In this document: positions 34,336-58,403 of the stretch, piece by piece | How the letters are laid out: the number at the start of each line of letters is the position of its first letter | Numbering within the stretch: the stretch's first letter is position 1 | Assembly (NCBI GenBank): GCA_026125795.1 | Contig: JAHCKM010000002.1 | Coordinates: 682,001 to 746,000 of the forward strand | DNA from: Burkholderiaceae bacterium | Lineage (GTDB): Bacteria; Pseudomonadota; Gammaproteobacteria; Burkholderiales; Burkholderiaceae_C | Direction: 5' to 3' | DNA length: 64,000 bases | The notes under the pieces: model-generated | Databases searched by the model: none | What the model was told of the DNA's origin: nothing | The model's input: only the letters and a program-made list of their open reading frames with translations | Position numbers and translations under genes: made by a program

Positions 34336-35612
<1,277 letters not shown>

Positions 35613-38643: not shown

Positions 38644-38661
38644 TGGGACTTAGGTATCGGT
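38644..38661 (-). promoter_or_regulatory. RATACC motif, site E (GAF-PAS histidine kinase gene)
   Basis: Minus strand CCGATACCTAAGTCCCATGG. It keeps RATACC and the GTC half but has A for the first G of GGTC. It lies between the tRNA-like gene and the histidine kinase gene that it would control. Confidence 0.4.
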
Positions 38662-38711
38662 TCCCTTGCGTGGTCCCGTCACCGTGGCTGGTGCGATGAC
38701 CCCTTTTGGGC

Positions 38712-38784
38712 TGGCCGGCGATGGGATTCGAACCCATGACCTCGCCCTCGATGACGTGCTCTATCCACTTTAGCTACGCCGGCC
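38712..38784 (-). tRNA. Degenerate tRNA or tRNA-like element
   Basis: The minus strand reads GCCGGCGTAGCTA at the 5' side and ends ATGGG-TTCGAAT-CCCAT-CGCCGGC. The acceptor stem is a perfect 7-bp match plus one extra G:C pair before position 1, and the T-arm is perfect. The anticodon arm is about three bases short: only CGTC/GGCG with a six-base loop can form, the anticodon is unclear, and no CCA is encoded (CAG follows). The D-stem has one mismatch. It is probably a tRNA pseudogene or a mobile-element tRNA mimic. A tRNA-gene finder with isotype models would decide. Confidence 0.55.
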
Positions 38785-38829
38785 AATGGTCCGAGATGCC
38801 TTGACGAGCGGTCCTCACGCTCCGTGGCT

Positions 38830-39441
38830 TCAATGGGCGGCAGGTTGCCCGTTTTCCCGGGCAGGTGCTTCGCCGGCAATCGGGGCGTTGCGCTGCAAGG
38901 CCGGCACATCAAAGGTGGTGAGGTGCTCGCCGACGAACCAGCTCTGCAACTCGTAGGTGCGCACCAACGAGCCGATGATCAAGTCGGCTGTTCCGTCGTC
39001 ACCGGCTTCGTCAGCCCTTCGTGCAAGCGCGCGCGCCTCCCGAAGCACCAACGCGTGGCAGCCGACGAGCCGCTGGAGCTGTTGCTCGGGCGCTTCGCGC
39101 CCGCGCGGCGCGTGCGCGATACGGGACTCATCGACGACGTCCTGCGCCAGTGCAAGCGCGACACCACCCAGAGTCTGCACTCGTTCGGCCAGTTGGTCGA
39201 TCAAGGCGAGCTGCTCCTGGTAGTGCTTGTCGAACAGGAGATGCAGCGCATAGAAGGACGGCCCGGAAATCTGCCAGTGCGCCTTCTTGTACAGGTCGCG
39301 CATGGCCATCGCGTGCGCCAGCAGGCGATTCAGCGCCGTCACGCTGCGCTGTCGCACGTCGGTCGACAGATCGAGGAACACGGGCTTGACGGTGCCGAAC
39401 TCTTGTGTGAGCGGCGCGTCATAAATGGCATCGAGGGTCAT
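38830..39441 (-). CDS. dps: Dps family ferritin-like DNA-protection protein
   Basis: 203 aa. Ferroxidase ligands occur in the Dps order: LYKKAHWQISGPSFYALHLL with the conserved His, then FDKHYQEQLALIDQLAERVQ with Asp and Glu. N- and C-terminal tails are longer than in E. coli Dps and could bind DNA. Dps oxidises Fe(II) with H2O2 inside a 12-mer and shields DNA. It is the last gene of a minus-strand unit cupin - 43-aa protein - LolA-like protein - dps, whose promoter carries motif site C. Confidence 0.9.
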   Translation of the reverse strand: MTLDAIYDAPLTQEFGTVKPVFLDLSTDVRQRSVTALNRLLAHAMAMRDLYKKAHWQISGPSFYALHLLFDKHYQEQLALIDQLAERVQTLGGVALALAQDVVDESRIAHAPRGREAPEQQLQRLVGCHALVLREARALARRADEAGDDGTADLIIGSLVRTYELQSWFVGEHLTTFDVPALQRNAPIAGEAPARENGQPAAH

Positions 39442-39466
39442 GGTTGGTTCCGGCGTGGTGGTTCAA

Positions 39467-40186
39467 CTAGGCGAAGCGGAAGTCGCTCAGATCGATCGAA
39501 ACAAGCAGCACGTCCCGCACCGGTTGTCCGTCCGGGCCGCGCAGGTAGGCGCGACGTCGGGTCGGGTACTTGATTCCATCCACGTCGATCGTGTCGTGGA
39601 CGTACTGTGTCGCACCGAACGCACCGGAGACATCGACCAGGTAGTCGTGTCTGCGCAGCAGGAAGTCGGGACCGAAGTAGAAGTCCTGCTCCGTACTGTG
39701 AGTCGCGACGTCCTCCGGAAAGCGCACCCTCAGGCCGTGCCAGGTTTCGCTGCCTTCCTTCCAAGGTTCGATCTCCCTGACCTGGAATCCAGGCATCAGC
39801 ATGAAGAAGGGTGTTGTCAGATAGGTCCACATCGCATAGCCGTTGAAGTAGGCGCGGTGCAGCGGATCCCATGGCGTGTTCATGGTGTGGCCGCTGAACG
39901 AGTCCCTGGGTGTCAGACGCTCCTGAACCAGGGCGCCTTCGCAAGTCACGATGGCAACCCGATGGGGAGTGAACTCCGTGCGCAGGTCGGGTCCCCCGAA
40001 GGGCCCGACGGAAGCCCGTTGCTCGTGCAACGATATGCGCATCGTTCGAGGGTTCGGTTCCTGCACAAGCCCCTTCATCGCCCAGAGGCCGCCGCCGGTT
40101 ACGATGGTCGCCGTGAGCGTGCTGTGTCGCATCCAGTGATCCATTCCGCCGTGCGCCTCGATGACGCGAGCAAGCAGAGCATTCAT
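39467..40186 (-). CDS. LolA-like conserved hypothetical protein
   Basis: 239 aa from an ATG at 40186 that overlaps the stop of the 43-aa membrane protein (ATGA). It begins MNALLARVIEAHGGMDHWMR and continues with alternating beta segments (TATIVTGGGLWAMKGLV, RVRFPEDVATHSTEQDFYFG, HDYLVDVSGAFGATQYVHDT), a layout like the unclosed beta-barrel of LolA/LppX-type lipid or hydrophobic-ligand binders. It has no signal peptide, so it would be cytosolic or membrane-tethered through its small partner. Function unknown. Confidence 0.8.
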   Translation of the reverse strand: MNALLARVIEAHGGMDHWMRHSTLTATIVTGGGLWAMKGLVQEPNPRTMRISLHEQRASVGPFGGPDLRTEFTPHRVAIVTCEGALVQERLTPRDSFSGHTMNTPWDPLHRAYFNGYAMWTYLTTPFFMLMPGFQVREIEPWKEGSETWHGLRVRFPEDVATHSTEQDFYFGPDFLLRRHDYLVDVSGAFGATQYVHDTIDVDGIKYPTRRRAYLRGPDGQPVRDVLLVSIDLSDFRFA

Positions 40187-40314
40187 GGCATGACCCATGC
40201 CACGATTGCCCACACCAACCACACCATCGCGACCAAAAGCAGGGGTGGGAGGACGAAGAGAGCGACACCCCACTCCTCGCGGTGCGCTTCGATGTATCGC
40301 CATAGGGCTTTCAC
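40183..40314 (-). CDS. 43-aa single-span membrane protein (paralogue of 11177-11308)
   Basis: GTG at 40314 follows GGAGAGAGGATAGAA. The product is 43 residues: a charged helix (KALWRYIEAHREEWGVALFV) and one hydrophobic span ending in AIVAWVMP. It aligns gap-free with the 43-aa product at 11177-11308. The stop overlaps the start of the LolA-like gene as ATGA. This coupling and the conserved length show it is a real gene. I do not recognise a named family. Confidence 0.7.
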   Translation of the reverse strand: MKALWRYIEAHREEWGVALFVLPPLLLVAMVWLVWAIVAWVMP

Positions 40315-40356
40315 TTCTATCCTCTCTCCATCAACGACAGACGGAAGGACACGTGC

Positions 40357-40761
40357 CTACTGGCTGAGTACGAGCAGCGGACGACCCTTTTCGACGATGT
40401 ACGTCGCCAGCTCTGCTGCGTTGGTCGTGCCCACGTTGCGCGCCGCGTGAACAGCGCCGGGCGGTATGAACAGTGCCTCTCCGGCCTTGAGCACCACTGG
40501 TGGCCGGCCCTCGAGCCGATACTCGAGCGTTCCCTCAAGGACATAGGCGACCTCGGCTCCCGGATGCGTGTGATTGCCGAACGAGGCACCCGGGGCGAAG
40601 TCCACGCGCACCTGAATGACCTCGCGCTCGGCGACTCCAAGATCGTGCCGCAGCGCATCGGTGCGCTTGATTCCCGATGGTTGCTGCGCCTGGCTGAGAT
40701 GCACGGCGAAGCCGACTCCGGCGATCAGCACCGCCGCCGCAACCAACTTGACTGCTTTCAT
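40357..40761 (-). CDS. Secreted cupin-domain protein
   Basis: 134 aa with an N-terminal signal or anchor (KAVKLVAAAVLIAGVGFAVH) and a single cupin: RVDFAPGASFGNHTHPGAEV with metal-ligand His-x-His and Glu, then PPVVLKAGEALFIPPGAVHA with the last His. Such small periplasmic cupins are frequent in stress and detoxification operons; catalytic role unknown. AAGGA lies seven bases before the ATG. It is first in a unit leading to dps; motif site C is about 90 bases upstream. A second cupin of similar design is at 60371-60778. Confidence 0.88.
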   Translation of the reverse strand: MKAVKLVAAAVLIAGVGFAVHLSQAQQPSGIKRTDALRHDLGVAEREVIQVRVDFAPGASFGNHTHPGAEVAYVLEGTLEYRLEGRPPVVLKAGEALFIPPGAVHAARNVGTTNAAELATYIVEKGRPLLVLSQ

Positions 40762-40840
40762 ACGAGAGTCCTTTCGTCCGATCAGGCGTTGCGACCGGCA
40801 ACGCGGGACCCGATGACAACAGGTCGAGCGTGCTTGGGCT

Positions 40841-40877
40841 ATTGGCCAATGGTGTTGCCGATACCTTCGTATGGATC
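40841..40877 (-). promoter_or_regulatory. RATACC motif, site C (cupin-dps operon)
   Basis: On the plus strand ATTGGCCAATGGTGTTGCCG is followed by ATACCTTCGTATGGATC. GGTGT and ATACC form an imperfect inverted repeat separated by five bases, and the minus strand also reads AACACCATTGGCCAATAG, similar to site A. The block ATACCTTCGTATGGAT is identical to one in site D. It sits 80-115 bases upstream of the cupin start. Confidence 0.55.
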
Positions 40878-41469
40878 AGAAATCCTCTGCCGGAACGAAG
40901 GCCTGACCCCACAACGCGACAGTCAGCGTGAGCACCTTGAACCATGCGTGGTACATCTTGTCGACGACTTCCGCGCCGTGCCCTTTCCGCGCGAGAAACG
41001 GCCGAATCGTGACCGTGAGAGGAACGATGAACGCCACCAAGTAGCGAAAGTGGATCACGTCGGATGCGGAACGGACACCGTCTGTCTTGTTCTTCTTCAG
41101 GCGTGTGTGGCGCAGGCCAAGCTCATGCTGGTAGTCCAACCACACCCGGTCGTACCTGGCCGCGCAGAGGTCGCGTATCCATTGTCCGAAACGCTTGCGC
41201 ACAGCGCCGAGATAGGCCACGTTGGGCTGACCGTCACCGCCACTGAAGTACTTCAGCAGGTGCGGATGACTACCGACAAAGCCGTACCACACGTCGAGCA
41301 CGGCCTCGACTTGGTCATCGAGCACTTCGCCGGCAAGGCGCAGGTGATCGATGTCGTCCTGGCTCAGGAGGATGGTCTTCTTGAGCAACTCGAAGTCGGC
41401 GTCGCTCAGGGGTGACGCTTCAACTTCAGCGGTGCCTTTGGTGTAGCCGGGTATGGAAGAGGTGTCCAT
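40876..41469 (-). CDS. Protoglobin-domain protein
   Basis: 197 aa. It begins with a short lead and SPLSDADFELLKKTILLSQD, followed by EVLDDQVEAVLDVWYGFVGS and HPHLLKYFSGGDG, then YDRVWLDYQHELGLRHTRLK. This order is that of single-domain protoglobins, heme proteins that bind O2, CO or NO and in sensors are fused to output domains. The His in YQHELGLRHT is a good proximal-ligand candidate. Here it stands alone, last in a unit with two alpha/beta hydrolase genes, and may detoxify or sense NO or carry out heme-based peroxide or carbene-like chemistry. Confidence 0.88.
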   Translation of the reverse strand: MDTSSIPGYTKGTAEVEASPLSDADFELLKKTILLSQDDIDHLRLAGEVLDDQVEAVLDVWYGFVGSHPHLLKYFSGGDGQPNVAYLGAVRKRFGQWIRDLCAARYDRVWLDYQHELGLRHTRLKKNKTDGVRSASDVIHFRYLVAFIVPLTVTIRPFLARKGHGAEVVDKMYHAWFKVLTLTVALWGQAFVPAEDF

Positions 41470-41494
41470 GTGGTTCCTCCGTTGTGGTCATCGA

Positions 41495-42532
41495 TCAGAG
41501 CCGATCGACATCCAGGATTGCTTGAGCGAAGGCTCGAGGTGCCTCTTGAGGCACGTTGTGTCCGATGTCTCGCAATACCCGATGCTGATGCTTCCCGGTG
41601 AACTTCGCCGCGTATGCGGCGCCATCGGCCGCCGCGCCATCGAAGTCACTGGCGATCGTGATGGTCGGGACGCCGATCACCGGCGCCGCACTGAGCCGCC
41701 GTTCGAACGACTCATACTGATCCTCGCCTCTCGCCAGCCCCAAGCGCCATCGATAGTTGTGAATGACGATGCTGACGTGATCTGGGTTGTCGAAGGACTG
41801 CGCCGTCCGATTGAAGGTGGCTTCATCGAAGCGCCACTTTGGAGAAGTGGTCCTCCAGATCAGTTCGGCGAGCGCCCGGCGGTGTTTCTGATAACCCAGC
41901 ACGCCGCGTTCGGTCGCAAAGTAGTACTGGTACCACCAGGCCAGCTCAGTCTGCGGAGGGAGCGGTCGCGTGTTGGCCTCGAGGTTGTTGATCAGGTAGC
42001 CGCTCACGGCGACCAAGGACTTGCAGCGCTCAGGCCACAGCGCTGCGACGATGTCCGCTGTGCGGGTACCCCAATCGAACCCGGCAAGAACGGCGCGCTC
42101 GATCTTGAGCGCATCCATCAGCGCGACGACGTCCAGGGCAACGGCTGCTTGCTGAGCGTTTCGGAAGGTGTCGTTCGAGAGAAAGCGCGTGGTACCGAAC
42201 CCCCTGAGGTAGGGAACGATCACTCGATAGTTCGCCGAGGCGAGCAAGGGCGCGACGTCTTCGAAGCTGTGAACGTCGTACGGCCATCCGTGCAAGAGAA
42301 TGACCGCTTGTCCGTCGCGCGGGCCGACCTCGACATAGCCGACATTCAGGACACCTGCCGCGGCGTGCTTCAAGGGCCCGAACGACGACTGTATCCCGAG
42401 CCGCCCAGGCGGTGCAGTCGAGGCGCTCCCGTTGCCCTGCGCAGATGCTGCTCCGATCCCGCCAAGCTGCGTGACTGCCAACGCCGTGGCGGCGGTACCC
42501 AGGAAGCGTCGGCGCTCGGATGTCGGATCCAT
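41495..42532 (-). CDS. Tat-exported alpha/beta hydrolase (epoxide hydrolase/dehalogenase-like)
   Basis: 345 aa with a Tat signal (SERRRFLGTAATALAVTQLG). The alpha/beta core has oxyanion motif VILLHGWPYDVHSFEDVAP, nucleophile Asp in AGFDWGTRTADIV, acid region IASDFDGAAAD and His in RDIGHNVPQEAPRAF. An Asp nucleophile in G-x-D-x-G context is typical of epoxide hydrolases and haloalkane dehalogenases rather than esterases. It lies between a second such hydrolase and the protoglobin gene, with gaps of about 25 bases on each side, so one operon is likely. Confidence 0.85.
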   Translation of the reverse strand: MDPTSERRRFLGTAATALAVTQLGGIGAASAQGNGSASTAPPGRLGIQSSFGPLKHAAAGVLNVGYVEVGPRDGQAVILLHGWPYDVHSFEDVAPLLASANYRVIVPYLRGFGTTRFLSNDTFRNAQQAAVALDVVALMDALKIERAVLAGFDWGTRTADIVAALWPERCKSLVAVSGYLINNLEANTRPLPPQTELAWWYQYYFATERGVLGYQKHRRALAELIWRTTSPKWRFDEATFNRTAQSFDNPDHVSIVIHNYRWRLGLARGEDQYESFERRLSAAPVIGVPTITIASDFDGAAADGAAYAAKFTGKHQHRVLRDIGHNVPQEAPRAFAQAILDVDRL

Positions 42533-42558
42533 GGTGGCTTTCCTGGTGCGCGACGCCT

Positions 42559-43551
42559 CTAACGGACAAACAGGGCCCGAACTTCTTCGATGGTTTGCTT
42601 CGGTACCTGCAGATGCGGGTAGTGACCCACGCCAGGAAGAACGAGCAGGTCCGAGCGCGTCCTGCTGGCGAGCTCAATGCCCATGTCGGGCTTGATGTAG
42701 ATGTCGCGTTCACCCCAGATGACCTTGACCGGGGTCTTCAGGCGGCTCAGGTTTGCTTCGAAGTAGTTCTGATCACGCGTGAAGTGCGAGTAGTAGTGGT
42801 AGAAGGCATCGGCTGAGGTCATGGTTGCCTGGCTCCATCCCCGGGACAGGTCTTCCCTGAGTGCCCGCGGGAGGTCGAACTGCGAATGCCTGGGCAGGCC
42901 GCGTCGAAACGCGTTATCCAGGATCTCGTCCATTGTTCTGTTCATATAGACACGTGTTGCCTCGGCAGCTGGCATGGACTTGAGGCTTTGCAGGCCGGGG
43001 TACATGTACTCGGGCCTGTTGAAAGGTGCGAAGTCACCGACAACGATCGTCCTGGCAATGTCGGGTTGATCCAAGGCCAGAAGGAGAGCCGGCAGCGCAC
43101 CTATGTCCGTTGAATAGATGACGAGCTTTGAAGTGTCGATGTCCGACTTGTCGATGTACGCCTTGAGCACACGCGCATAGTCCCTGGGCGAGTACGAGAA
43201 GCGATCGACGGGAGGCCTCGATGACAGGCCATAGCCCGGCCAGTCAAAGGCGTGCACCTCGAACTCGTCGCCGAGCGTCGTGGCGATGTCCTTCCAGATC
43301 CACAACGTTTCTGGGAACCCGTGCAGGAACAGCACGACGCCTTTGGCGTTCGGGTTGCGAACCAGCATGCGCCGCAGCTTGATGTCGTTGCCGATGTCGA
43401 GAGCGCCGATGTCCACCTTGGCAGCGTGAGTCTGAGTACACGCTGCGAGCAGAACAAGGCACAGCAAGAGGGCCGTCACGCAGAGCTCTTTGGTCGCGAT
43501 CTGCAAGCGAGAGCGAGTACGGACGGTACCGGCATGGATGTGTGGGCTCAT
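42559..43551 (-). CDS. Alpha/beta hydrolase lipoprotein with Asp nucleophile
   Basis: 330 aa from the ATG at 43551; a GTG at 43620 would leave no room for a promoter below site D. A signal peptide with a lipobox (CLVLLAAC) predicts a lipoprotein. The core reads LFLHGFPETLWIWKDIA, then VIYSTDIGALPALLLA with the nucleophile position Asp, acid in VIWGERDIYIKP and His in GVGHYPHLQVPKQ. It resembles haloalkane dehalogenase/epoxide hydrolase proteins. It is the first gene of the hydrolase-hydrolase-protoglobin unit; site D of the RATACC motif is about 80 bases before the start. Confidence 0.82.
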   Translation of the reverse strand: MSPHIHAGTVRTRSRLQIATKELCVTALLLCLVLLAACTQTHAAKVDIGALDIGNDIKLRRMLVRNPNAKGVVLFLHGFPETLWIWKDIATTLGDEFEVHAFDWPGYGLSSRPPVDRFSYSPRDYARVLKAYIDKSDIDTSKLVIYSTDIGALPALLLALDQPDIARTIVVGDFAPFNRPEYMYPGLQSLKSMPAAEATRVYMNRTMDEILDNAFRRGLPRHSQFDLPRALREDLSRGWSQATMTSADAFYHYYSHFTRDQNYFEANLSRLKTPVKVIWGERDIYIKPDMGIELASRTRSDLLVLPGVGHYPHLQVPKQTIEEVRALFVR

Positions 43552-43628
43552 TGGGTACTCGGTTGGCGCTCTTGTGTTTGGACCCGACGATTTGAACGGC
43601 TCGTGGTCGACCAAGACCACTAGACGCT

Positions 43629-43651
43629 GGTATCGGTCAATACCTTCGTAT
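43629..43651. promoter_or_regulatory. RATACC motif, site D (hydrolase operon and RND pump, divergent)
   Basis: GGTAT-CGGTCA-ATACC is a perfect inverted repeat (43629-43644), continued by TTCGTATGGATTGG. The 16-base block ATACCTTCGTATGGAT is identical to site C. It lies in the 226-bp gap between the minus-strand hydrolase operon and the plus-strand efflux operon and could serve both. Confidence 0.6.
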
Positions 43652-43777
43652 GGATTGGCGCCCTGCTCGCCGCTCTTCCTACCCTGGAAGGATGAGGCGC
43701 GACTAACGCCTCAGGGCGTGGGGCTGCGATACGCCGGCTTCTAGATTTCCGCAGTCATCACTCGCGGAGATCGCTCC

Positions 43778-44956
43778 ATGTCTGTGTACCAGCGTTCGTT
43801 GGCAGCGCGCTTCGCCGCTTGGCTTGGCGCACTCCTCGGCATGGCCGTCCTTGCCGCATGCGGCCGGAACCAGGCCGCTTCGGAGCCGGCTGGCGCGGCG
43901 GAGGTCATGGTTGCCGTTGCGGTGGAGCGAGAGGTGCAGGACATCGAGGAGGTGACGGCACGATTGGAAGCACCGGACACGGTCGAGTTGCGTGCACGAG
44001 TTGCCGGAGTCGTAGAAAAGGTGCATTTCACCGAGGGGCGCCAGGTACGGCAAGGCAACCTGCTGATGACGATCGATCCACGGCCGTTCATGGCTGAGGT
44101 TGCGCAACGCGAGGCGCAACTGGCTTCGAGCCGCACCCAGGCGGAGCTCGCCGCGAGCGAACTCGCGCGCGCCGAGCGTCTGCTTCCGATCGATGGTGTG
44201 AGCCGGCAGGAGGTCGACCAGTTGCGTGCCGGTCTGGCCAACTCGCGTTCCGCGGTTCGGGCAGCGGAAGCCGCGCTGACACAGGCGAGGCTGAACCTGG
44301 AGTTCACGAGCATCCGTGCACCCATCTCCGGGCGCATCTCGCGCGCGCACGTGACCGCAGGCAATCTGGTTGGTGTCGGGAATCCGGTGCTGACGACGAT
44401 CGTGTCGAGCGATCGTGTCTACGCGTACTTCGACGTCAGAGAGGCGGTCTTTCTACGCCACGTGCAGGAGGTTCGGGCAAGCCGGATGCCGGTGCGGATG
44501 GGGCTGGCCCACGAGGCCGGCTTTCCGCACGAAGGTCGGCTCGACTTCGTCGACAACCAGTTGAATCCGGTCACGGCCACGATCCGCGGTCGCGCGCTTT
44601 TCGACAACTCGCACGGGCACTTCACCCCGGGCCTCTTCGCGCGTGTGCGCCTGGCCGGAAGTGCACGCTACCCGGCGACACTGGTTCCAGAGCGCGCAGT
44701 TACGACCGACCAGACGCGCAAGGTCGTCCTGGCCGTCGGCGATGACAACGTCGTGCGACCGCGCGAGGTGAGGCCGGGCGCCCTGATCGAAGGCATGCGG
44801 GTCGTGCAAGGCCTTCAAGCCGGCGAGCGTGTTGTCGTCGAAGGCCTGCATCGGGCTTTGCCGGGCTCGAAGGTGACCCCTCGAATGCTTCAGATGGATG
44901 TCACCGGCCTTCCGGTAAAGGCGCCCGCGCCCGGCGCCGCAACGCTGGGCAGCTAG
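43778..44956 (+). CDS. RND efflux periplasmic adaptor (MFP) lipoprotein
   Basis: 392 aa with lipobox MAVLAACGRN. Membrane-fusion layout: barrel-sandwich half LRARVAGVVEKVHFTEGRQV, alpha-hairpin (AQREAQLASSRTQAELAASE to RLNLEF), second half TSIRAPISGRISRAHVTAGN, then beta-barrel and C-terminal domain (LVPERAVTTDQTRKVVLAVG). It links the inner-membrane RND pump to the outer-membrane channel. First of a three-gene pump operon; motif site D lies about 130 bases upstream. Confidence 0.92.
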   Translation: MSVYQRSLAARFAAWLGALLGMAVLAACGRNQAASEPAGAAEVMVAVAVEREVQDIEEVTARLEAPDTVELRARVAGVVEKVHFTEGRQVRQGNLLMTIDPRPFMAEVAQREAQLASSRTQAELAASELARAERLLPIDGVSRQEVDQLRAGLANSRSAVRAAEAALTQARLNLEFTSIRAPISGRISRAHVTAGNLVGVGNPVLTTIVSSDRVYAYFDVREAVFLRHVQEVRASRMPVRMGLAHEAGFPHEGRLDFVDNQLNPVTATIRGRALFDNSHGHFTPGLFARVRLAGSARYPATLVPERAVTTDQTRKVVLAVGDDNVVRPREVRPGALIEGMRVVQGLQAGERVVVEGLHRALPGSKVTPRMLQMDVTGLPVKAPAPGAATLGS

Positions 44957-44965
44957 GCGTATCGC

Positions 44966-47900
44966 ATGGATATCTCTCGCTTCTTCATCGCACGTCCGCG
45001 CATGGCGTCGGTGCTCGCGATGTTCGTGTCCCTCGTCGGGACGTTGGCGATCTTCCGGCTGCCGGTCTCCGAGTACCCGGATGTCGTGCCGCCGCAGATC
45101 GTCGTGAGGGCGCAGTTTCCGGGCGCGAACCCGCGTGTGATCTCCGAAGCTGTGGCCACGCCACTGGAGGAACAGATCAACGGCCTGGACGGAATGCTCT
45201 ACTTCGAGAGTCAGGCCACCGCCGACGGCACGATGACATTGACCGTGACGTTTCGGATCGGCACGTCACCTGAGCAGGCCGAGACAGCAGTCCAGAACCG
45301 TGTCAACCGCGCATTGCCGCGTTTGCCGGAGATCGTGCGCCAGATCGGCGTGACGACCGAGAAGCAGTCGCCCAACTTGACGATGGTCGTCCACATGATC
45401 AGCGTCGACGACAGCCGTGACTCGCTCTACCTGCGCAACTATGCGCACCAGCAGGTGCGCGACGAGCTGCTCCGCATTCCGGGCATGGGGTCGGTGCAGT
45501 TGTTCGGAAGCGGTGACTACGCCATGCGTTTGTGGCTGGATCCTCAACGGCTGGCCGGCCAGGGCATGACGGCGACCGACGTCGTGGGTGCCGTGCGCGA
45601 GCAGAACGCTCCAGTGGCGGCGGGGGTGGTGGGCGCATCGCCCAGCGTCGAGGGGACCGACTTCCAGCTGCCGATCAACACCCAGGGCCGCCTGGTCACC
45701 GAGCGGGAGTTCGAGGAAATCATCGTGCGCACCGATCCGAACACCGGCGCCGTGGTGCGCCTGCGCGACGTCGGGCGGGCCGAGATGAGCTCCAACAGTT
45801 ACGCGGCGCGCAGCCTGCTGAACAACCAGGTGTCCGCCGCGATCGGCATCTTTCAGGCTCCCGGATCGAACGCGCTGGCGATTTCCGACGCCGTGCGCTC
45901 GACCATGGAGCGGCTCAAGCCGATGTTCCCGGCGGGCGTCGACTACCGGATCATGTACGACCCGACGCGCTTTGTGCGGACGTCGATCTCCAAGGTCGTG
46001 CAGACACTGGCCGAAGCCGTCTTGCTGGTCGTGCTCGTCGTGATCCTGTTCCTGCAGACCTGGAGAGCATCGATCATTCCGTTCCTGGCCGTGCCGGTGT
46101 CCGTCGTCGGTACGTTTGGCGTGCTGTTGGCGCTGGGCTTCTCGATCAACACGCTGACGCTGTTCGGGTTGGTGCTGGCGATCGGCATCGTGGTCGACGA
46201 CACGATCGTCGTGGTGGAGAACGTCGAGCGCAGCCTGGAAGACGGGATGACACCCCTTGAGGCCACCTTGAAGGCCATGCGCGAGGTGAGCGGTGCGATC
46301 GTCGCGATTGCGCTCGTGTTGTGCGCTGTATTCGTGCCGCTGACGCTGGTGCCCGGCTTGTCGGGCCAGTTCTACAAGCAGTTCGCGGCCACGATCGCCA
46401 TCTCGACGGTGATCTCGGCGATCACGTCGCTGACGCTGTCGCCAGCGCTGGCGGCGCTGCTGCTGCGGCCGCACGATGCTCCGAAGGACGCCTTGTCGCG
46501 CGGCATCGATCGATTATTTGGCCGGTTCTTCAGGCGATTCAACGCCTTCTTCCACCGGGGCAGCACGGCTTACGGGCGTGGCGTCACGGGCTTGCTTCGA
46601 CGCAAATCATTGGCGATCGCGGCCTACGGCGTGCTGCTGATCACGACGGCGCTGCTTTTCGTGCGCGTGCCGACGGGCTTCGTGCCTGCACCGGACAAGC
46701 AGTACCTGATCGGCATCGTCCAACTGCCGGCTGGCTCGACGCTGGATCGAACCGAGCAGGTGATCCGGCGGATGACCGAGATCGCGTTGGCAGTGCCGGG
46801 CATCATCGAGGCGAGCGCGTATCCCGGGCTGTCGATCGCCGGCTTCTCCGCAGCGACGAACGAGGGAATCATCTTCTTTGGGTTGTCGCCCTTCGAGGAA
46901 CGACGCTCGCCGAGCCTGTCCAAGGACGCGATCCTCGCGAAGGTCAACGGCGCGATTCAGCAGATCGGCGAGGCGCGTCTGTTCGTTGTGCCGCCGCCTG
47001 CAGTCGACGGGCTGGGCAATGTCGGCGGCTTCAAGCTCCAGCTGCAGGATCGCACCGGGCAGGGCGAGCAGGCTCTGTTCGGTGCCGTGCTCGAGGTGCT
47101 GGCGCAGGTACAGACCAAACCGGAATCCAAGGTCGGCACACCGTATTCGACCTATGACATCAATGTCCCCCAACTCTACGCCGACGTCGATCGCGTCAAG
47201 GCCAAGCAGATGGGCGTGGCGTTGCGCGACGTCTACGACACGCTGCAGATCAATCTCGGCTCGCTGTATGTGAACGATTTCAACCGGTTCGGTCGCACCT
47301 ATCAAGTGATCGTTCAAGCCGATGCGGCGCACCGCGCCAGCGCAGACAACATACCGGAGTTGAAGACGCGCAACGCCACCGGCGAGATGGTGCCGTTGGG
47401 TGCCCTGCTGAAGGTGGATCCGACGTTCGGCCCCACGCGCGTCACGCGTTTCAACGGCTTTCCATCGGCCGATTTCAACGGCGCGCCGAAGGCCGGCTAC
47501 TCCAGCGGAGCGGCCGAGGCCGAGATGGAGCGCCTGCTGCGCTCACTGCCTCGCGGCATGACGTACGAATGGACCGAGCTCTCCTACCAGGACCGGCTCA
47601 CCCGCGATGTCGCCGTGCCTGGCACCGATTTGCGCGTTCCCACGCTGGTGGCCGTGCTGACGCTCTCTGTTGTGCTGGTCATCCTGGTGCTGGCCGCGCT
47701 GTACGAGAGCTGGAGCCTGCCGCTGGCCATCATCCTGATCGTGCCGATGTGCATCCTGTCGGCGCTGGCGGGGCTCGCGCTGTCGAGGCAGGGGCTGTTC
47801 GGCCAACCGGGTGACCTGAACCTGTTCACGCAGGTTGCGCTGGTGGTGTTGGTGGGACTGGCCTGCAAGAACGCCATCCTGATCGTCGAGTTCGCAAAGG

Positions 47901-48256: not shown

Positions 48257-49626
48257 AGCTCCTGACGACGGGATTGCTGGCCGCTGCACTGGCCGGGTGC
48301 TCAACGCCGCAGTTGCCTTCGCGCCGAGACCTGGCGCTCGACGCGAAATTCGCCAACCAGCCCGTCGACGCCGAGCAGGGCGAACCGGCGGGGCGCTTCT
48401 GGGAGCGGTTCGGCGACCCGCAGCTCAATGCGCTCGTTGCGCGCGCATCCGAGGTCAACCACGACCTCCGCATCGCGACCGCAAACCTACAGGAAGCCAG
48501 GGCGCTGGCGCGCGACGCCGACGCCCAGCGCTGGCCGCAGGTCAACGCGGTGGCCGCCGCTGGCCGGTTGCGCGACCGCATGGCCCCCGGTCGCAGCCTT
48601 TACGTGGTGGGTTTTGACGCGGCGTGGGAGGCCGATCTGTTCGGACGTTTGTCTGGCGCGCAGGATGCCGCCCGTGCCACGGTGCGCGCCACAGAGGCCG
48701 ATCTTCAAGCGGTACGGCTGAGCCTGACTGCGGAAGTGGCACGCACGTACTTCGATTTGCGTGGACTGCAGGAGCGGCTTCGTGTGTCGCAGGCGGCGCT
48801 GAAGACCCAGGAGACGGTGCTCCGGTTGGTGCAAGCACGGTACGAGTCGGGCCGTGGCGTCGCGCTCGATGCCGAGCGTGCACGTGCACTGGCGGAAACC
48901 ACGGCAGCCAGCATCCCAGTGCTCGAAACGGCCCTTATGCGCGCGCGTTACCGCCTGGCGGTTCTGTGCGGTCAAGCGCCGACGGCACTGGATACCGAAC
49001 TCATGGATGCGCGACCGCTTCCTGGCTTGCGCAGCGTGCCGCTGGGCAGCGTCGGATCGCCGGAGAGTCTGCTGATGCGCCGGCCCGAAGTGCGAGCTGC
49101 TCTGCATGCGGCAGCGGCCGCTGCCGCACAAGCAGGGGTGGCCCGCAGCGCGCTCCTTCCGCGCATCACGCTCGGCGGCACCATCGGTCAAAACGCCTCG
49201 CAGCCGGGCAACTTGCTCGATGGCAGTGCATACGTCTACAACCTGGGCGCGCAGCTCGTGTGGAACATGCTCGACTTCGGCCGCGTCCGTGCGCAGATCG
49301 CGGCAGCCGATGCGCGCGTCGAAGCCGTGCTTGCGGCGTGGGAGCGCACGGTGCTGACGGCGCTTGAGGAAACCGAAGCTGCGCTTGCAACCTATACGCG
49401 CACACAACAGCAAGCCGAACGTCTGTTCGAGGCGGCTCGATCGGCCGAGGCCGCAGCCCGCATCGCGCGAGCGCGCTTCGATGCCGGTGTGATCGACTTC
49501 CTGGTCGTGCTCGATGCCGAGCGCGAGTTACTGGCTGCGCGCGATCGACTGGCGCTGTCGCAATCGAATGCCGCAACCTCGCTGGTTGGCGTGTACAAGG
49601 CGCTGGCGGGAGACCTGAGCTCGTAG
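48253..49626 (+). CDS. Outer-membrane efflux lipoprotein (NodT/OprM family)
   Basis: 457 aa from a GTG overlapping the permease stop (GTGA). Lipobox LAAALAGCST, then two OEP repeats (FWERFGDPQLNALVARASEV ... LTAEVARTYFDLRGLQERL; and ARSALLPRITLGGTIGQNAS ... LTALEETEAALATYTRTQQQ). The product is a trimeric outer-membrane channel completing the tripartite pump. Convergent with the response regulator gene, 18 bases apart. Confidence 0.93.
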   Translation: MKLLTTGLLAAALAGCSTPQLPSRRDLALDAKFANQPVDAEQGEPAGRFWERFGDPQLNALVARASEVNHDLRIATANLQEARALARDADAQRWPQVNAVAAAGRLRDRMAPGRSLYVVGFDAAWEADLFGRLSGAQDAARATVRATEADLQAVRLSLTAEVARTYFDLRGLQERLRVSQAALKTQETVLRLVQARYESGRGVALDAERARALAETTAASIPVLETALMRARYRLAVLCGQAPTALDTELMDARPLPGLRSVPLGSVGSPESLLMRRPEVRAALHAAAAAAAQAGVARSALLPRITLGGTIGQNASQPGNLLDGSAYVYNLGAQLVWNMLDFGRVRAQIAAADARVEAVLAAWERTVLTALEETEAALATYTRTQQQAERLFEAARSAEAAARIARARFDAGVIDFLVVLDAERELLAARDRLALSQSNAATSLVGVYKALAGDLSS

Positions 49627-49644: not shown

Positions 49645-50442
49645 TCAGCGGCCCGGGCCGCGCTGCGTACGGCTTGAGCCGGACGACCTGCCCTCCGGCC
49701 GCTGCTTGATGCCCAGTTGTGCGGCCATGGTCACGAGCTCAGGCAGGGACCGTGCTTCCATCTTGCGCATCAGGCTGCCGCGGTGTGCCTTGACGGTGAT
49801 CTCGCTGATGCCCAGTTCGCCTCCGACCTGCTTGTTCAGCAAGCCGGCCACGACCAGCTCCATGACCTCGCGTTCGCGTCGGCTCAGCGACGCGTAGCGA
49901 TCACGCAGCGCGTTGACTTGGAGTTGGTGGTCCAGCGCGGTCCGGCTGCGTTGGAGCGCCCCCGAGATCGCAGCGATGAGCACGTCGTCGTTCAGCGGCT
50001 TGGTGAGAAACTCCACGGCACCCGCCTTCATCGCCTGCACCGTCAACGGCACGTCGCCGTAGCCGGTGATGAAGATGATCGGCATGTCGGGGCGCTCGAC
50101 CGCCACCTGCTTCTGCAGCTCCAGGCCATTCAAGCCCGGCATGGAGAAATCGAGGATCAGGCAGCACGGCACGAGGCGACGCGGACTGGCAAGGAACTCC
50201 TGCGCCGACTCGAACGTCTGCGGTTGCCAGCCGGCCGAGAGCACGAGAAGCTCCAACGACTCGCGCACCGAGACGTCATCGTCGACGACGAACACCACCG
50301 CGGCCATGTCCGCGGCCTGGCCCGGCTTCGATCCCGAGGTCTCTCGCGATGGCATGGTCGACCGAGGGTTGTCGTGCGCAACCTCGCGCAGGTGGAAAGT
50401 ATAGGAGTCAGTGCCGATACTGGCGGTGTGGACGGCTTTCAT
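49645..50442 (-). CDS. FixJ/TodT-type response regulator (receiver - LuxR HTH)
   Basis: 265 aa. A 45-residue lead precedes the receiver: acidic triad Asp54-56 (VVDDDVSVRESLE), phospho-acceptor Asp98 (CLILDFSMPGLNG), Thr/Ala switch (IIFITGYGDVPLTV) and Lys148 (FLTKPLNDD). The LuxR-type HTH at about 185-245 reads LSRREREVMELVVAGLLNKQ and GISEITVKAHRGSLMRKM. It overlaps the stop of the upstream histidine kinase gene (ATGA), so they are a cognate pair. It is the only full-length DNA-binding response regulator in the window and the best candidate to bind the repeated RATACC motif. Confidence 0.93.
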   Translation of the reverse strand: MKAVHTASIGTDSYTFHLREVAHDNPRSTMPSRETSGSKPGQAADMAAVVFVVDDDVSVRESLELLVLSAGWQPQTFESAQEFLASPRRLVPCCLILDFSMPGLNGLELQKQVAVERPDMPIIFITGYGDVPLTVQAMKAGAVEFLTKPLNDDVLIAAISGALQRSRTALDHQLQVNALRDRYASLSRREREVMELVVAGLLNKQVGGELGISEITVKAHRGSLMRKMEARSLPELVTMAAQLGIKQRPEGRSSGSSRTQRGPGR

Positions 50443-52085
50443 GCTTGGACCTCGCTCGAAGGGCAAACGTGATCTGCGCTGGTTGACGTGCCGGGTTGCG
50501 GAGCGCGGGGAATGGAGATACAGAAGGTCGCACCGGGTCCGTCGTTGGCCTCTGCCCAGATGCGTCCATGGTGTCTCTCGACGATCGACCGCCCGACGGA
50601 CAGGCCGATGCCCAGGCCGTCGCTCTTGGTCGTGAAGAACGGATCGAACACCTTGTCCACGCTGTGAGGATCGAGGCCGATGCCCACGTCCCGCACGGCC
50701 ACCCGCACCCGCTCGGCGTCTTCGCGTTCGGTTCTGATCACCAACAGCCTTGGTCGATCGCTAATGTCGTTCAACGCGTCCGAGGCGTTGCGCAGCAGCG
50801 TCAGCAGAACCTGCTGGAGGTGGATGCGGTCTCCGGTGACGGGCGGCAGGTCGGCCGCGAGTTCCAACTGGACCACCACGCGGTTTCGCTGGAGCTCGTT
50901 CAACGACAGTGAAACGACCTCTTTCGTTGCCTCGTTCAGGTCCATTGGCTCGAGCGACATCTCTCTCCTGCTGAACAGGGCGCGCAGGTGTGTGATCACC
51001 TCGGCAGCGCGGTTGCCGTCGCGGATGGTCCGCCTGGCCGTCTCGCATGCGCCGGTGATGTTCGGCGGATCGGCAGCCAGCATGCGAAGGCACGCGCTGG
51101 CGTTGGCAATGATGCCGGCCAGCGGCTGGCTCACCTGGTGAGCGACGGAAGCGGTCAGCGTGCTCAGGGTGACGACTCGTGCCACATAGGCGAGATCCGC
51201 GCGAGCCCGGCTCAGCGCCTCCTCGGCAGCCTTGCTCGCCGTCACGTCATGGATCGCGCCGACGATCACCGGCCTGGTGTCCTGTCCGACGCGGTGCGCC
51301 GCGCCGATCAGATGCTTGACGGTGCCTTGTGAAGTGACGATGCGGAAGTCGAAGCGGGAGTCCGCGCCCGCCCGGGCACGCTGGATTGCGTTCTGCAACG
51401 TGGCCATGTCCTCAGGATGGACGATCTCCTGCAGCCGTTGCATCCCGGCCTGCGACCCGACCGTGAGCTCGCAGATGCGATAGAACTCGTCCGACCAGGT
51501 TTGCTCCTGCGTCAGCAGATCCACAGTGAAGCTGCCGGTCCGGCTCAGACGCTGGGCCTCGGTCATGTGCTCGTTGGCGCGTTGGACCTTCGCCTCGGCA
51601 CTCTTGCGATCCTCGACGTCGGTGTTCACGCCGTACCACTGCGTGATTTGGCCGTTGTCGTCGCGCAGCGGGCTCGCTCGCATCAGGAACCAGCGGTAGA
51701 CGCCGTCGTGGCGTCGCAGGCGCGCTTCGGCTTCGCCCGGCAGACCGGAGGCCATGATGCGCTGCCAGGCTGCAACCAGATCACTCAGATCATCCGGATG
51801 GACGGCAACCGCCCAGCCCCAGTCCCTCACCCGTGCCAGCGGCAGACCCACAAAGTCGAGGTAGTGCTGGTTGAAGAACTCGGCACCTCCATCCGGTCGA
51901 GCGGACCAGGCCAGCGCGGGAATCGTGTCGATGATCAGCTTGAGCCTTTGCTCGCTGGCCCTCACGGCGTTCTCGATCAGGCGTGACTCCGCCTCGCTCG
52001 TTCCACCCGCCGGCTCCGTTCGAGAAGGTCTGATGACCTCGATTCCTCGCCGATCGGTGACGGCCGCAAGCTTGCCGGTGCGCAT
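50439..52085 (-). CDS. PAS sensor histidine kinase, partner of the FixJ-type regulator
   Basis: 548 aa from the ATG at 52085 (GGAGG eight bases before). Two PAS modules (residues about 45-170, IDTIPALAWSARPDGGAEFF; and about 190-310, LSRTGSFTVDLLTQEQTWSD), then HisKA (ASVAHQVSQPLAGIIANASA) and HATPase (TLLRNASDAL, RDVGIGLDP, SDGLGIGLSVGRSI). The H-box reads AHQVSQPL where paralogues have AHEVNQPL, so the acidic residue after His is Gln, which may lower phosphatase or kinase activity. It is cytosolic. Site F of the RATACC motif lies about 90 bases upstream, which suggests autoregulation of the pair. Confidence 0.9.
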   Translation of the reverse strand: MRTGKLAAVTDRRGIEVIRPSRTEPAGGTSEAESRLIENAVRASEQRLKLIIDTIPALAWSARPDGGAEFFNQHYLDFVGLPLARVRDWGWAVAVHPDDLSDLVAAWQRIMASGLPGEAEARLRRHDGVYRWFLMRASPLRDDNGQITQWYGVNTDVEDRKSAEAKVQRANEHMTEAQRLSRTGSFTVDLLTQEQTWSDEFYRICELTVGSQAGMQRLQEIVHPEDMATLQNAIQRARAGADSRFDFRIVTSQGTVKHLIGAAHRVGQDTRPVIVGAIHDVTASKAAEEALSRARADLAYVARVVTLSTLTASVAHQVSQPLAGIIANASACLRMLAADPPNITGACETARRTIRDGNRAAEVITHLRALFSRREMSLEPMDLNEATKEVVSLSLNELQRNRVVVQLELAADLPPVTGDRIHLQQVLLTLLRNASDALNDISDRPRLLVIRTEREDAERVRVAVRDVGIGLDPHSVDKVFDPFFTTKSDGLGIGLSVGRSIVERHHGRIWAEANDGPGATFCISIPRAPQPGTSTSADHVCPSSEVQA

Positions 52086-52173
52086 GGGAGGGCCTCCATG
52101 TGTGTCGGGCGCGGGAGCCGGGCGCAGCCCGCGCTGGGGAGGCAGGAGGATGCGCGCGCGCGCGCGCACGGTC

Positions 52174-52194
52174 GATAAGACCTTGGTATCGATC
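52174..52194 (-). promoter_or_regulatory. RATACC motif, site F (histidine kinase-regulator operon)
   Basis: Minus strand CGATACCAAGGTCTTATCGA, with core ATACC-AA-GGTCT. It lies between the disulfide reductase gene end and the histidine kinase start, in the only possible promoter region of the kinase-regulator pair. Confidence 0.55.
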
Positions 52195-52233
52195 TCGTCG
52201 CGGGCGCCGATAGCGCGCGGCACCCGGGCCGCT

Positions 52234-53613: not shown

Positions 53614-53697
53614 CTTCGCTCCTCGTTCGTTGGGTCACAAGCCTGCTGCCGGTAGTGGCAGGTGTCCGTGACTCTCCGGGACATCGATCGACCCCGC

Positions 53698-53715
53698 TTC
53701 GACCGATCGGTCGAA
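53698..53715. promoter_or_regulatory. 18-bp perfect palindrome, candidate TetR-type operator
   Basis: TTCGACCGATCGGTCGAA is its own reverse complement. It lies between the divergent disulfide reductase and msrB genes, 85 bases from the former. The GACCGATCGGTC core resembles operators of TetR-family repressors. No such regulator is encoded in this window. Confidence 0.55.
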
Positions 53716-53872
53716 CGTCGCCTACCTCGAACGAAGGCCGACGCGGCTGGTCATCTCAGGTGCCTATGCCCACGCCCATGGCGGCATGCGCTCCATCGGC
53801 AACGACGCCACCCTGCACGCGTGCTGCGGGCGCGCCGCTCGCGGTGCGTGCATCTCGACATCAGGAGAAAGA

Positions 53873-54325: not shown

Positions 54326-54833
54326 AGAACGCGCTGTACTCGCTGGAGGTTGCTTCTGGGGCATGCAGGATCTCTTCCGGCGCCAAGACGGTGTCTTGTC
54401 GACGCGGGTCGGCTACACCGGAGGCACCACGCGCAACGCGACCTACCGCAACCATGGCGGACACGCCGAAGCGATCGAGATCGTCTTCGACCCGTCACGC
54501 ATCGGCTACCGGAAGCTTCTCGAGTTCTTCTTCCAGATCCACGATCCGACCACGCGCGACAGGCAGGGCAACGACGTCGGATCGAGCTACCGCTCGGCCA
54601 TCTTCTACACCTCCGACGTGCAGAAGCAGATCGCGGAAGACACCATCGCCGATGTCGACGCTTCGGGCCTCTGGCCTGGCAAGGTCGTGACGCAGGTGGC
54701 GCCGGCGAGCGAGTTCTGGGAGGCCGAACCGGAACACCAGGACTACCTGCTGAAGAACGTCGGCGGCTACACCTGCCACTACGTCCGTCTCGAGTGGAAG
54801 CTGCCGAGACGGAACTCCGTCGCTCTGGGCTGA
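54318..54833 (+). CDS. msrA: Peptide-methionine (S)-S-oxide reductase
   Basis: 171 aa. Active-site Cys12 in [13 protein letters not shown], then [20 protein letters not shown] with the conserved His and Glu and the segment [20 protein letters not shown]. It reduces methionine-S-sulfoxide. The start overlaps the msrB end, so the two reductases are coupled. A NuoF-like gene follows 14 bases downstream. Confidence 0.93.
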
Positions 54834-54847
54834 CGAAGGCCGAAGGC

Positions 54848-56182: not shown

Positions 56183-56967
56183 CGCGCTGCCGCGGTGGAT
56201 CGCGACAGTTCGGGGGCCATCGCCCTGCGAGCGGCGTCGAAGGCCTCCCACTGGGCGGAGTCCGGCAACGATGGAATGGTGACGAGCTCCTTGCGGTCGA
56301 AACCCACCAGGGCTGCGTCGACCATCTCCTGCGCACTCATCACGATCGACTGCGGCAGCTCGGCCAACGGCGTGCCGGCGACCGTCCAGAAGTCGGTGCT
56401 CGTGGCGCCGGGCAACACCACCTGGATCTGAATGCCCTTGGCGCTCAGCTCGTGGTCGAGCGACTGCGACAGCGCGAGCACGAACGCCTTCGTGCCTGCA
56501 TAGGTGCCGTTCAGCACTTCGGGCGCCAGTGCCACCACGGAGCCGATGTTGACGATGGCGCCGCTGCCGCGCGCCACGAAAGCCGCAGCCGCGGCGTGCG
56601 CGAGGCGGGTCAGCGCGGTGACGTTGAGCTGGATCATGTGCTCCAGCGACTCGATATCCGAGTCGACCAGTGATCGGGTCGCCCCCACGCCGGCGTTGTT
56701 CACCAGCAGCTTGATGCGGCTGTCGGTTTGCAGGATGCGTTCGACACGCTGCTGGTCCGCGGCGATCGTGAGATCGGCGCGCACCGCTTCGACGGCACGC
56801 CCGGTGGCTGCGGCGACGCGTTCGGCCACGAGCTGCAGCCGCTGTTCATCGCGTGCGACCAGGATCAGATCGTGTCCGCGCCGTGCCAGCCGGTCGGCGT
56901 AGACAGCGCCGATGCCGCCGGAGGCACCGGTGATCAGCGCGGTTCCAATGGTGTGAGCGGGCGTCAT
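56170..56967 (-). CDS. Short-chain dehydrogenase/reductase (SDR)
   Basis: 265 aa. Cofactor site [24 protein letters not shown] in [14 protein letters not shown], catalytic Ser in [13 protein letters not shown] and Tyr/Lys in [15 protein letters not shown]. The Arg in the second strand (LVARDEQRL) favours NADP(H). DltE/classical SDR type with unknown substrate. Its ATG overlaps the stop of the DUF2798 gene. The tail overlaps the convergent NuoF-like gene by 13 bases. Confidence 0.9.
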
Positions 56968-57446
56968 GTTGGGCTCCTGCGAGATGGATGGCCGAAGGCC
57001 CTGTCGACCAGGCGCTGCACAGGCGGCGCGAGGGCAAGAATCATCGGGACGACCACCCCGTAGCCGAGCGCCCAGGCCCGCAGCCAGAGCCGGACAAAGT
57101 CTTCCCTGAGCCCCAGGTTTCTGAACAGGACAGCAAACGAAATGACGCCCGTCGTGATCACGCCCATGAGGAGAGCAAACACGAGCCGTTGCCGCATCGC
57201 TCCCATGACGATCGATCCGGTGTCGTGGTCCGGTTTGGGTATGAACAGCGTGGCAGTCAGGCGCTGAATCTTCGGGGCGATCAGCAACATGATCGGGATG
57301 ACGATGAGATACGCCAGCCCCCAAGAAGTCAGCCAGGCGGCCAACAGCTGCCCGCCCGATCCCACGTGCAAGTAGACGAGCGCGAACGAGATCGCGCCGG
57401 TGGTGATGGCGCCCATCAGGAGCGCGAACGCGATCCGGTTCTTCAT
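56964..57446 (-). CDS. DUF2798 family membrane protein (two repeats)
   Basis: 160 aa consisting of two tandem units of about 70 residues: NRIAFALLMGAITTGAISFA and RLVFALLMGVITTGVISFAV, each followed by a second span. Four predicted membrane spans in total. DUF2798 has no known function; single-unit versions occur beside TetR and SDR genes. The stop overlaps the SDR start (ATGA). It lies 12 bases downstream of wrbA, so wrbA - DUF2798 - SDR is one unit. Confidence 0.88.
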   Translation of the reverse strand: MKNRIAFALLMGAITTGAISFALVYLHVGSGGQLLAAWLTSWGLAYLIVIPIMLLIAPKIQRLTATLFIPKPDHDTGSIVMGAMRQRLVFALLMGVITTGVISFAVLFRNLGLREDFVRLWLRAWALGYGVVVPMILALAPPVQRLVDRAFGHPSRRSPT

Positions 57447-57458
57447 CGGCGTACCGAT

Positions 57459-58067
57459 TCAGCGGGCAGTCGCGAGCCGTGACGCCAGAGTGGCGACGTG
57501 ACGGCCTTGGAAGCGTGCCATCGCGCGCTCCTGCTCGCTGGGCTTGCGTTCGCCGTCACTGCCGGCGATGGTCGACGCGCCGTACGGGCTGCCGCCCTTG
57601 ATTTCGTCGGTGCCCGTCTGCCGCTGCTCGCTGTACGGCAGACCGACCAGCACCATGCCGTGGTGCAGCAGCGTGATGTGAAAGCTGAGGATGGTGCTCT
57701 CCTGGCCGCCGTGCTGCGTTCCGGTCGATGTGAAGACGCTGCCCAGCTTGCCGATCAGGGCGCCTTTCGCCCACAGACCGCCGGTCTGGTCGAGAAAGGT
57801 CCGCATTTGCCCGCACATGTTTCCAAAGCGGGTCGGCGTGCCGAACACGATGGCGTCGTGGCTCGCAAGATCGTCGGGCGTCGCGACGGCCGTGTTGTTG
57901 TCCACCTTGGCGCCCATCTGCCGCAGCGCCTCCGGCGACATCGTCTCGGGCACGCGCTTCACCGTCACCACCGCGCCGGGCACCTCACGGGCTCCTTCGG
58001 CGACGGCCTGCGCCATGACTTCGATGTGTCCGTAGGCGCTGTAGTAGAGAACCAGGATCTTCGACAT
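57459..58067 (-). CDS. wrbA: NAD(P)H:quinone oxidoreductase, WrbA type
   Basis: 202 aa flavodoxin fold. Flavin-phosphate loop [20 protein letters not shown], the WrbA insertion and the segments [23 protein letters not shown] and [18 protein letters not shown] are diagnostic. It reduces quinones by two electrons and prevents semiquinone cycling. It heads the wrbA - DUF2798 - SDR unit. The promoter region is shared with a receiver-only regulator gene and contains motif site G. Confidence 0.92.
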
Positions 58068-58403
58068 GGGTTACCTCGAGGCAGAGGGATTGAAGGGGTT
58101 GGTCCGCCTGTTCCGCGAACCACGTCAACGTGCTCGGACGAGCGGCTTGTTCACGTGTGAACGAAGGCTAGTGGCCGACCCCGGGGGCTGCCACATGCTT
58201 TGGAACAGGTTGGCGCTACCGCTTTCGAGCGAGCCGTCGCGTCCGGTCCGTCACCGCGCCTGCCGTTGCGCAGCTGCGCCGACATCCTCGCGACCGGCGC
58301 TTGACTGGCGTCAAGGCCGGCGCAACGCAATCAGACCAAGGTATTGTTTACGGCCGCGCCGGCATGGTGCAAGCTTGCCCAAGCGGCTGCAACAGGGTCC
58401 ACG
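58068..58403. other. Divergent regulatory stretch between wrbA and the receiver gene
   Basis: 336 bases with no credible gene. It contains motif site G at 58332-58350, near the receiver gene. A second TGGTATCG-like sequence occurs after the receiver gene at about 58857 but has no gene to control. Confidence 0.5.
58332..58350. promoter_or_regulatory. RATACC motif, site G (receiver-only regulator)
   Basis: Plus strand CAGACCAAGGTATTGTTTA; on the minus strand CAATACCTTGGTCTG. Core ATACC-TT-GGTCT, matching site F at 10 of 12 core positions. It lies about 55 bases before the receiver gene start. Confidence 0.5.

Follow-up and report, generated by a model that had tools for sequence, protein, structure and literature searches.

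The described systems closest to the one considered here are the two-component systems StySR/TodST, TdiSR, FixLJ, and hFixL-FxkR. StyR-type regulators reportedly read ATAAAC-N4-GTTTAT via Lys175, Val176, and His179 (PMC5874301), and the activating StyR site STY2 lies at about −40 (PMC2442086); StySR and TodST serve aerobic styrene and toluene catabolism, and their known targets are single catabolic operons. TdiSR acts in anaerobic toluene catabolism with a kinase that has two tandem PAS domains and one transmitter, and its palindrome lies upstream of the −35 region (PMC5874301). The FxkR site is given as a pair of six-base words separated by N4, and fxkR itself is predicted to have one (PMC4999443). 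The targets of FixLJ and hFixL-FxkR are fixK-type genes and respiration. Here, we describe a 64-kb stretch of a Burkholderiaceae genome (the window; G000:C2:682001-746000 of a 6.57-Mb genome in 6 contigs; positions are window coordinates unless a contig is given) that probably, judging from its sequence, holds most of one compact autoregulated two-component regulon centered on a NarL/FixJ-type response regulator (49645-50442, minus strand), the proposed binder of a palindromic promoter site.

The regulator contains receiver and GerE domains (Pfam PF00072 and PF00196, both above cut-off) and is thereby of the NarL/FixJ type. Although it and the transmitter of its partner kinase belong to the families of FixLJ and hFixL-FxkR, the regulator scored 208.6 bits against the NCBIfam FixJ equivalog NF006900 (cut-off 255), the kinase scored 195.1 bits against the FixL equivalog NF041777 (cut-off 850), and the site letters are others. 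The kinase gene of the same operon (50439-52223, minus strand; ATG likely at 52088, judged by eye) encodes PAS_3 in two stretches, HisKA, and HATPase_c, which is the TdiS-type layout, whereas the site proposed for TdiR, GGTGTTCGCACC, differs from the matrix trained here on other genomes (see below), as do the targets (TdiR site from PMC5874301). With StySR and TodST, the window shares the regulator family, a six-N4-six palindrome, and a site near the activating position of about −40; its site, YRATAC-N4-GTATYR, is nevertheless not that of the StyR/TodT group, and many promoters stand in place of a single operon. By sequence, the closest solved structure was 1yio/1zn2, which we take to be StyR. 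The aligned recognition helix is TVKVHRH in 1yio and TVKAHRG in the window regulator, and of the three named StyR contact residues (numbering matched by eye) only the first is shared, Ala and Gly taking the place of the other two by our reading of the alignment, which again sets the regulator apart from the StyR/TodT group. These changes would fit a site whose frame is unchanged and whose outer letters differ. In kind, this is a FixJ-family two-component regulon, which is known; what looks new is its DNA word, along with the rule for tandem sites and the occurrence in eight phyla (see below). The reading of the window made earlier from its letters alone (the sequence-only reading) had named no described regulon with such a site, and in an open-access library, which omits most subscription papers, we recognized no description of the site, in any of its written forms, or of the regulon.

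The DNA word was derived from 80 loci (1.40 Mb) of other genomes, the best 80 of at least 546, each encoding a relative 59-75% identical to the regulator in its best segment. Two scoring models were trained only on these other genomes: a symmetric palindrome matrix, iterated from the seed ATACC-WW-GGT, and an asymmetric promoter model. ATACC-N2-GGTAT had 44 matches on both strands (22 places), compared with 0-4 for every other spacing between 0 and 11. The symmetric matrix found 390 sites at ≥12 bits against 20.0 in shuffled loci, and 256 against 2.0 at ≥16 bits, and the trained site was YRATAC-CWWG-GTATYR. At ≥14 bits, 78 of the 80 loci had at least one site, and only 6 of 322 sites lay within called genes although 77% of the sequence was called coding; genes were called by a simple script, making all gene-based counts approximate. 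When over-represented split words were sought in intergenic sequence without a seed, the top-ranking ones were fragments of this motif (ATAC-2-TGGT, ATAC-4-GTAT, and ATAC-7-CAAT). The sequence-only reading had described the site as RATACC followed by GGTC, with a center of two bases at some promoters and three at others. GGTC is one form of the right half of a full palindrome, and the 2-bp center alone stands: the 3-base form, RATACC-N3-GGTC, showed almost no enrichment (at ≥12 bits in the 80 loci, 15 intergenic sites compared with 312 for the 2-bp center), most of its occurrences resembled coding sequence by eye, and two window sites had been mis-parsed.

When turned towards the gene, the gene-proximal site proved asymmetric, as judged from 167 sites that have a gene on just one side. 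The promoter model reads approximately YRAYACCWWNGTVYAATNGAYT, a 17-bp spacer, and a TATNAT-like box, and it found 286 sites at 14 bits in the 80 loci against 2 in shuffled sequence. The gene-proximal copy abuts the −35 box, whose hexamer starts 8.5 bp past the site center; this puts the center some 43 bp upstream of the expected start, a position that would suit a class II activator. A gene started within 400 bp in the promoter direction at 212 of 284 proximal sites and in the other direction at 108, with 5 sites inside a gene. At 152 of the 284, a further palindrome was present within 60 bp upstream, 77 pairs being spaced by 17 bp and 35 by 18 bp (112 together). A GntR/PdhR-type operator and an ECF promoter were also considered and set aside, as the half-site order and the sigma-70-like spacing did not seem to fit them; the Burkholderia low-oxygen locus had likewise been an early candidate.

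In the window, the promoter model found 9 sites at ≥18 bits (mean of 100 shuffles, 0.0) and 10 at ≥14 bits (0.01), which contradicts an origin by chance. The matrix scan proposed in the sequence-only reading, where a lack of enrichment was to refute the regulon, showed strong enrichment both there and in the 80 loci, and sites E, F, and G of that reading were recovered in place, with 17.0, 20.9, and 20.8 bits in the symmetric matrix. Site F (52174-52193, minus strand, center 52183, 27.7 promoter-model bits, GATACCAAGGTCT) precedes the kinase-regulator operon, as would be expected of the autoregulated two-component regulon that had been supposed. Site E (38642-38661, minus, center 38651, 25.7 bits, GATACCTAAGTCC) stands ahead of a GAF-PAS histidine kinase gene (36834-38537, minus, start codon uncertain) whose product is 45% identical to that of 50439-52088 over 343 columns; window sites thus precede two kinase genes, one of them together with the regulator. 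Site G (58329-58348, minus, center 58338, AATACCTTGGTCT) had been placed correctly and assigned to the receiver-only gene (58404-58784, plus; Response_reg only), whereas the promoter model favors a flavodoxin-like gene on the other side (57459-58067, minus; presumably WrbA-like), with 19.4 bits towards 58067 against 8.8 towards 58404, making the flavodoxin-like gene a possible target.

The strongest site (12389-12408, plus, center 12399, 30.8 bits) precedes an EHN-type epoxide hydrolase/alpha-beta hydrolase gene (Pfam EHN; 12540-13943, plus, start codon uncertain) that the sequence-only reading had missed. Its labels A-D were taken as 28705, 35542, 40860, and 43639, which scored 7.7, 8.0, 19.3, and 18.3 bits in the symmetric matrix, the first two being at chance level. 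Site A (28702-28721, plus, center 28712, 23.0 promoter-model bits) precedes genes for a glyoxalase-fold protein and an aldehyde dehydrogenase (28775-30903, plus) with homologues behind sites in other loci, and the site at 35542 (35539-35558, plus, center 35549, 19.4 bits) precedes a zinc alcohol dehydrogenase gene (35709-36818, plus). These two have a poor right half and depart from the 22-letter consensus at 2 and 3 places, with boxes at the fixed spacing (TTGATT/TCCCAT and TTGATC/TCTGAT, respectively); we kept them as sites because the asymmetric promoter model recovers what the symmetric matrix alone would discard. Two tandems follow on the minus strand. The proximal site 40840-40859 (center 40849, 20.4 bits), with an upstream copy at 40857-40876 (19.3 bits, symmetric matrix), stands ahead of genes for a cupin (40357-40761), an unnamed product (39467-40303), and a Dps/ferritin-like protein (38830-39441), which from their order probably form an operon. 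The proximal site 43618-43637 (center 43627, 18.1 bits), with an upstream copy at 43636-43655 (18.3 bits, symmetric matrix) that also stands ahead of the RND pump genes 43778-49626, precedes a putative operon, again by gene order, of two alpha/beta hydrolases and a protoglobin (40876-43620, minus). A ninth site (58847-58866, minus, center 58856) scored 22.2 bits, and one crossing the window end (C2:745998-746017, minus; first bases 63998-64000) matched the pattern with one mismatch ahead of a Rieske-FAD reductase gene (62285-63886, minus). The tenth promoter-model site (18253-18272, plus, center 18263, 14.6 bits) lies inside the large kinase gene 15277-20928 and was excluded from the count. 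ARAGORN reported a tRNA-like gene with a two-base anticodon at 38712-38784, between site E and the Dps-like gene.

The seven promoters listed in the sequence-only reading were thus retained as sites in a larger regulon, which gains 12399, 58856, the window-end site, and two more 5-6 kb beyond. In 280 kb of flanks, the promoter model found only the latter two at ≥14 bits (C2:750763 and C2:751985, both just beyond the window end), and the symmetric matrix found 5 sites, 2 within genes and 2 at a paralogous locus. Genes behind sites beyond the window encode a thioredoxin-like protein and a molybdenum hydroxylase. Ahead of the MsrB/MsrA and disulphide-oxidoreductase genes of the window, the promoter model gave no site of ≥7 bits. 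Among 207 genes behind sites in the 80 loci (names partly by eye), we counted kinases 32 times, receiver-type proteins 28, the epoxide-hydrolase type 27, short-chain dehydrogenases and the cytochrome P460 type 10 each, an alpha/beta-hydrolase cluster and the enoyl-CoA hydratase type 7 each, MEDS sensors 5, glyoxalases 3, and others 1-2 each; the rarer ones include MsrB, aldehyde dehydrogenase, and disulphide-oxidoreductase resembling window genes. The frequent kinase and receiver-type genes agree with autoregulation. The earlier statement that sites precede both signaling and stress-enzyme genes holds for the sites, while "stress" is a label taken from gene families only; from those families, the targets read as handling of reactive organic chemicals.

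The sites were also clustered in the genome. CRAYACCWWNGTVYAATNGA with up to 2 mismatches had 18 matches in 6.57 Mb, 12 of them in C2:694391-751995 (58 kb; the in-gene site 18263 is counted and 43627 is not included) and 6 elsewhere, whereas the same pattern read backwards had 1 match genome-wide. Exact ATACCWWGGTMT occurred at four places (F, G, C2:588222, and C2:588713), all beside receiver or kinase genes of the main or the paralogous locus. The 58-kb stretch encodes a single DNA-binding FixJ-type regulator together with one receiver-only protein, and its five kinases have transmitters related to one another; several sensors may therefore act on the one regulator, with the receiver-only protein perhaps providing feedback. 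Besides the two kinases behind E and F, these are a Ser/Thr kinase-AAA-GAF-PAS-histidine kinase (15277-20928, minus; transmitter 57% identical to that of 50439-52088) and a GAF-PAS histidine kinase (21866-23395, minus; 45% identical to the end of the former), both putative members of the regulon, and a histidine kinase just past the window (L113:3838-4629; transmitter 46% identical to that of 50439-52088). The last adjoins a strong site; a transmitter was found in this kinase, and no PAS or GAF domain. A Ser/Thr kinase-AAA gene without a transmitter (23389-27453) overlaps 21866-23395 by 7 bases, and the pair 21866-27453 together resembles the neighboring one-piece kinase 15277-20928.

Occurrence of the motif followed that of the regulator, in agreement with the earlier link to the FixJ-type protein. 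The helix TVKAHRG was present in 70 of the 80 loci, which had been chosen by the regulator; on clustering, the regulator family (joined with receiver-only proteins) was found in 79, kinases in 58, and the epoxide-hydrolase type in 27. In the genomes of those 20 training loci, out of 80, that were named, the pattern with up to 1 mismatch had 87 matches; 19 of the 20 genomes had at least one, and the control had 3. The regulator itself is patchily distributed: at E ≤1e-60, it was found in 1 of 200 sampled genomes of the order, the window's own, and at E ≤1e-65 in 4 of 299 sampled family genomes, with the 3 other sampled genomes of the same genus lacking it. The other 199 order genomes had 45 pattern matches, and the window's genome had 5. 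All three other regulator-bearing family genomes had matches (5, 3, and 4, that is, 12), compared with 2 in all in 20 family genomes without the regulator; G413 and G408 were fresh, whereas G355 carries a regulator fragment identical to that of training locus L033 (Scleromatobacter) and is apparently the genome from which this locus came. Conversely, a control FixJ-type paralogue with the helix TVEAHR was present in 82 of 100 family genomes, and 29 of its loci (102 kb) held no site. Loci on Sinorhizobium fredii and Mesorhizobium ciceri plasmids, reached via protein search, also carry sites. Relatives of the regulator (E ≤1e-40) occurred on 337 plasmid records (167 Rhizobium, 79 Sinorhizobium); the best places were <60% identical in 331, and many may be other paralogues. 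In the Granulicella genome G217, that of locus L076, 21 pattern matches were found, many in C5:85661-133863 and 272084-291658, as if a block had been doubled.

Several observations weigh against a single regulon read by this regulator. The site at 58856 aims into the 3′ end of the receiver-only gene and has no sensible target, and the −10 boxes are poor at E, F, G, 43627, and 58856. Only 21 of 30 regulator loci tested, of the 80, have a site within 1.5 kb of the regulator, and none lies within that distance of the regulator in L142, L143, or the window, where the nearest is F, upstream of the kinase. Loci L033 and L052 had no site at 14 bits, and the genome of L031 had no pattern match. The four matches of G408 are on contigs other than that of the regulator, although the promoter model has a match of 29.9 bits some 3 kb away from the latter; in G210, 7 matches are spread over 5 contigs. 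The scattered matches in these two genomes indicate that targets are not always one block. Finally, a paralogue at C2:588739-589359, the genome's nearest to the regulator (50% identical, helix TVKVHRG), has similar sites beside it, and the two may share sites or cross-talk. Its locus (G000:C2:586773-591836; L108:5773-10836), with two palindromic sites, a receiver-only gene, and kinases, resembles the main locus in layout; its order is kinase, regulator, site, receiver-only gene, site, hybrid kinase-receiver gene.

These points bear on who reads the sites and to what effect. A different DNA-binding protein might be the reader, since in loci selected by the regulator any protein linked to it would look alike, and the sites beside the paralogue could be taken in the same sense; we nevertheless regard this as improbable, given that the other DNA-binding families among the 25 widest clusters (names by eye) reach 8 and 7 of the 80 loci, that the 58-kb stretch holds just two of the genome's 92 response-regulator matches (the FixJ-type regulator and the receiver-only protein), and that the site frame is that known for StyR-type relatives. 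Repression in place of activation could be argued from the contact between site and −35 box, an arrangement shared with some repressor sites. The center about 43 bp before the expected start is, however, near the activating StyR site STY2 (about −40; PMC2442086), and at several window promoters both boxes are far from consensus, as where an activator is needed, making repression unlikely. That promoters chosen by eye merely resemble one another by chance is barely conceivable: the window has 37 copies of the bare word RATACC, and the symmetric matrix rejects 28702 and 35539, but the nine window sites and the 286 in the 80 loci far exceed the shuffled expectation, and the sites are clustered in the genome.

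We therefore favor an autoregulated regulon in which several sensor kinases with related transmitters would phosphorylate the regulator 49645-50442, whose phosphorylated dimer would bind YRATAC-CWWG-GTATYR centered about 8.5 bp before the −35 hexamer and help RNA polymerase to start, as in class II activation. Many promoters would bind a second dimer 17 or 18 bp further upstream. The targets, about a dozen promoters in all, many of them ahead of detoxification genes, would include the operon of the regulator itself, a further kinase, enzymes for epoxide, aldehyde, and alcohol handling and redox stress, and probably the receiver-only protein, as feedback.

A broader reading, which we hold with slightly less than even confidence, is that of a portable regulon: a regulator whose recognition helix is almost invariant, its DNA word, receiver, kinases, and a dozen promoters would cross phyla largely as one block, with sensor front ends and enzymes swapped and the protein-DNA code fixed, and several kinases sharing one type of transmitter would feed one regulator running a general response to reactive chemicals. 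The regulator recurs in eight phyla, several of the genomes being metagenome bins that possibly contain foreign contigs. A tree of 89 regulators required 13 changes of phylum label (minimum 7, shuffled mean 32.6), with stars on 16 of its 85 inner branches. Labels of one phylum mostly group together, although some are mixed; the tree does not prove transfer, and the patchy presence is the better hint. The clustered labels and the scattered matches of G408 reduced our confidence in this reading. A phage-integrase match at 8643-10184, considered as an island border, was below the cut-off, had no NCBIfam match, and was not used.

The usual view is that a regulon has to be rebuilt once its regulator enters a new host. 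If the above is true, sites seem to travel with the regulator, and the transfer of a whole small network would become testable. A large unnamed FixJ-type group (at least 546 relatives, part of them checked for sites) would gain a DNA code together with a rule for its promoters and a list of targets, and the many-kinases-to-one-regulator layout would offer a handle on signal pooling.

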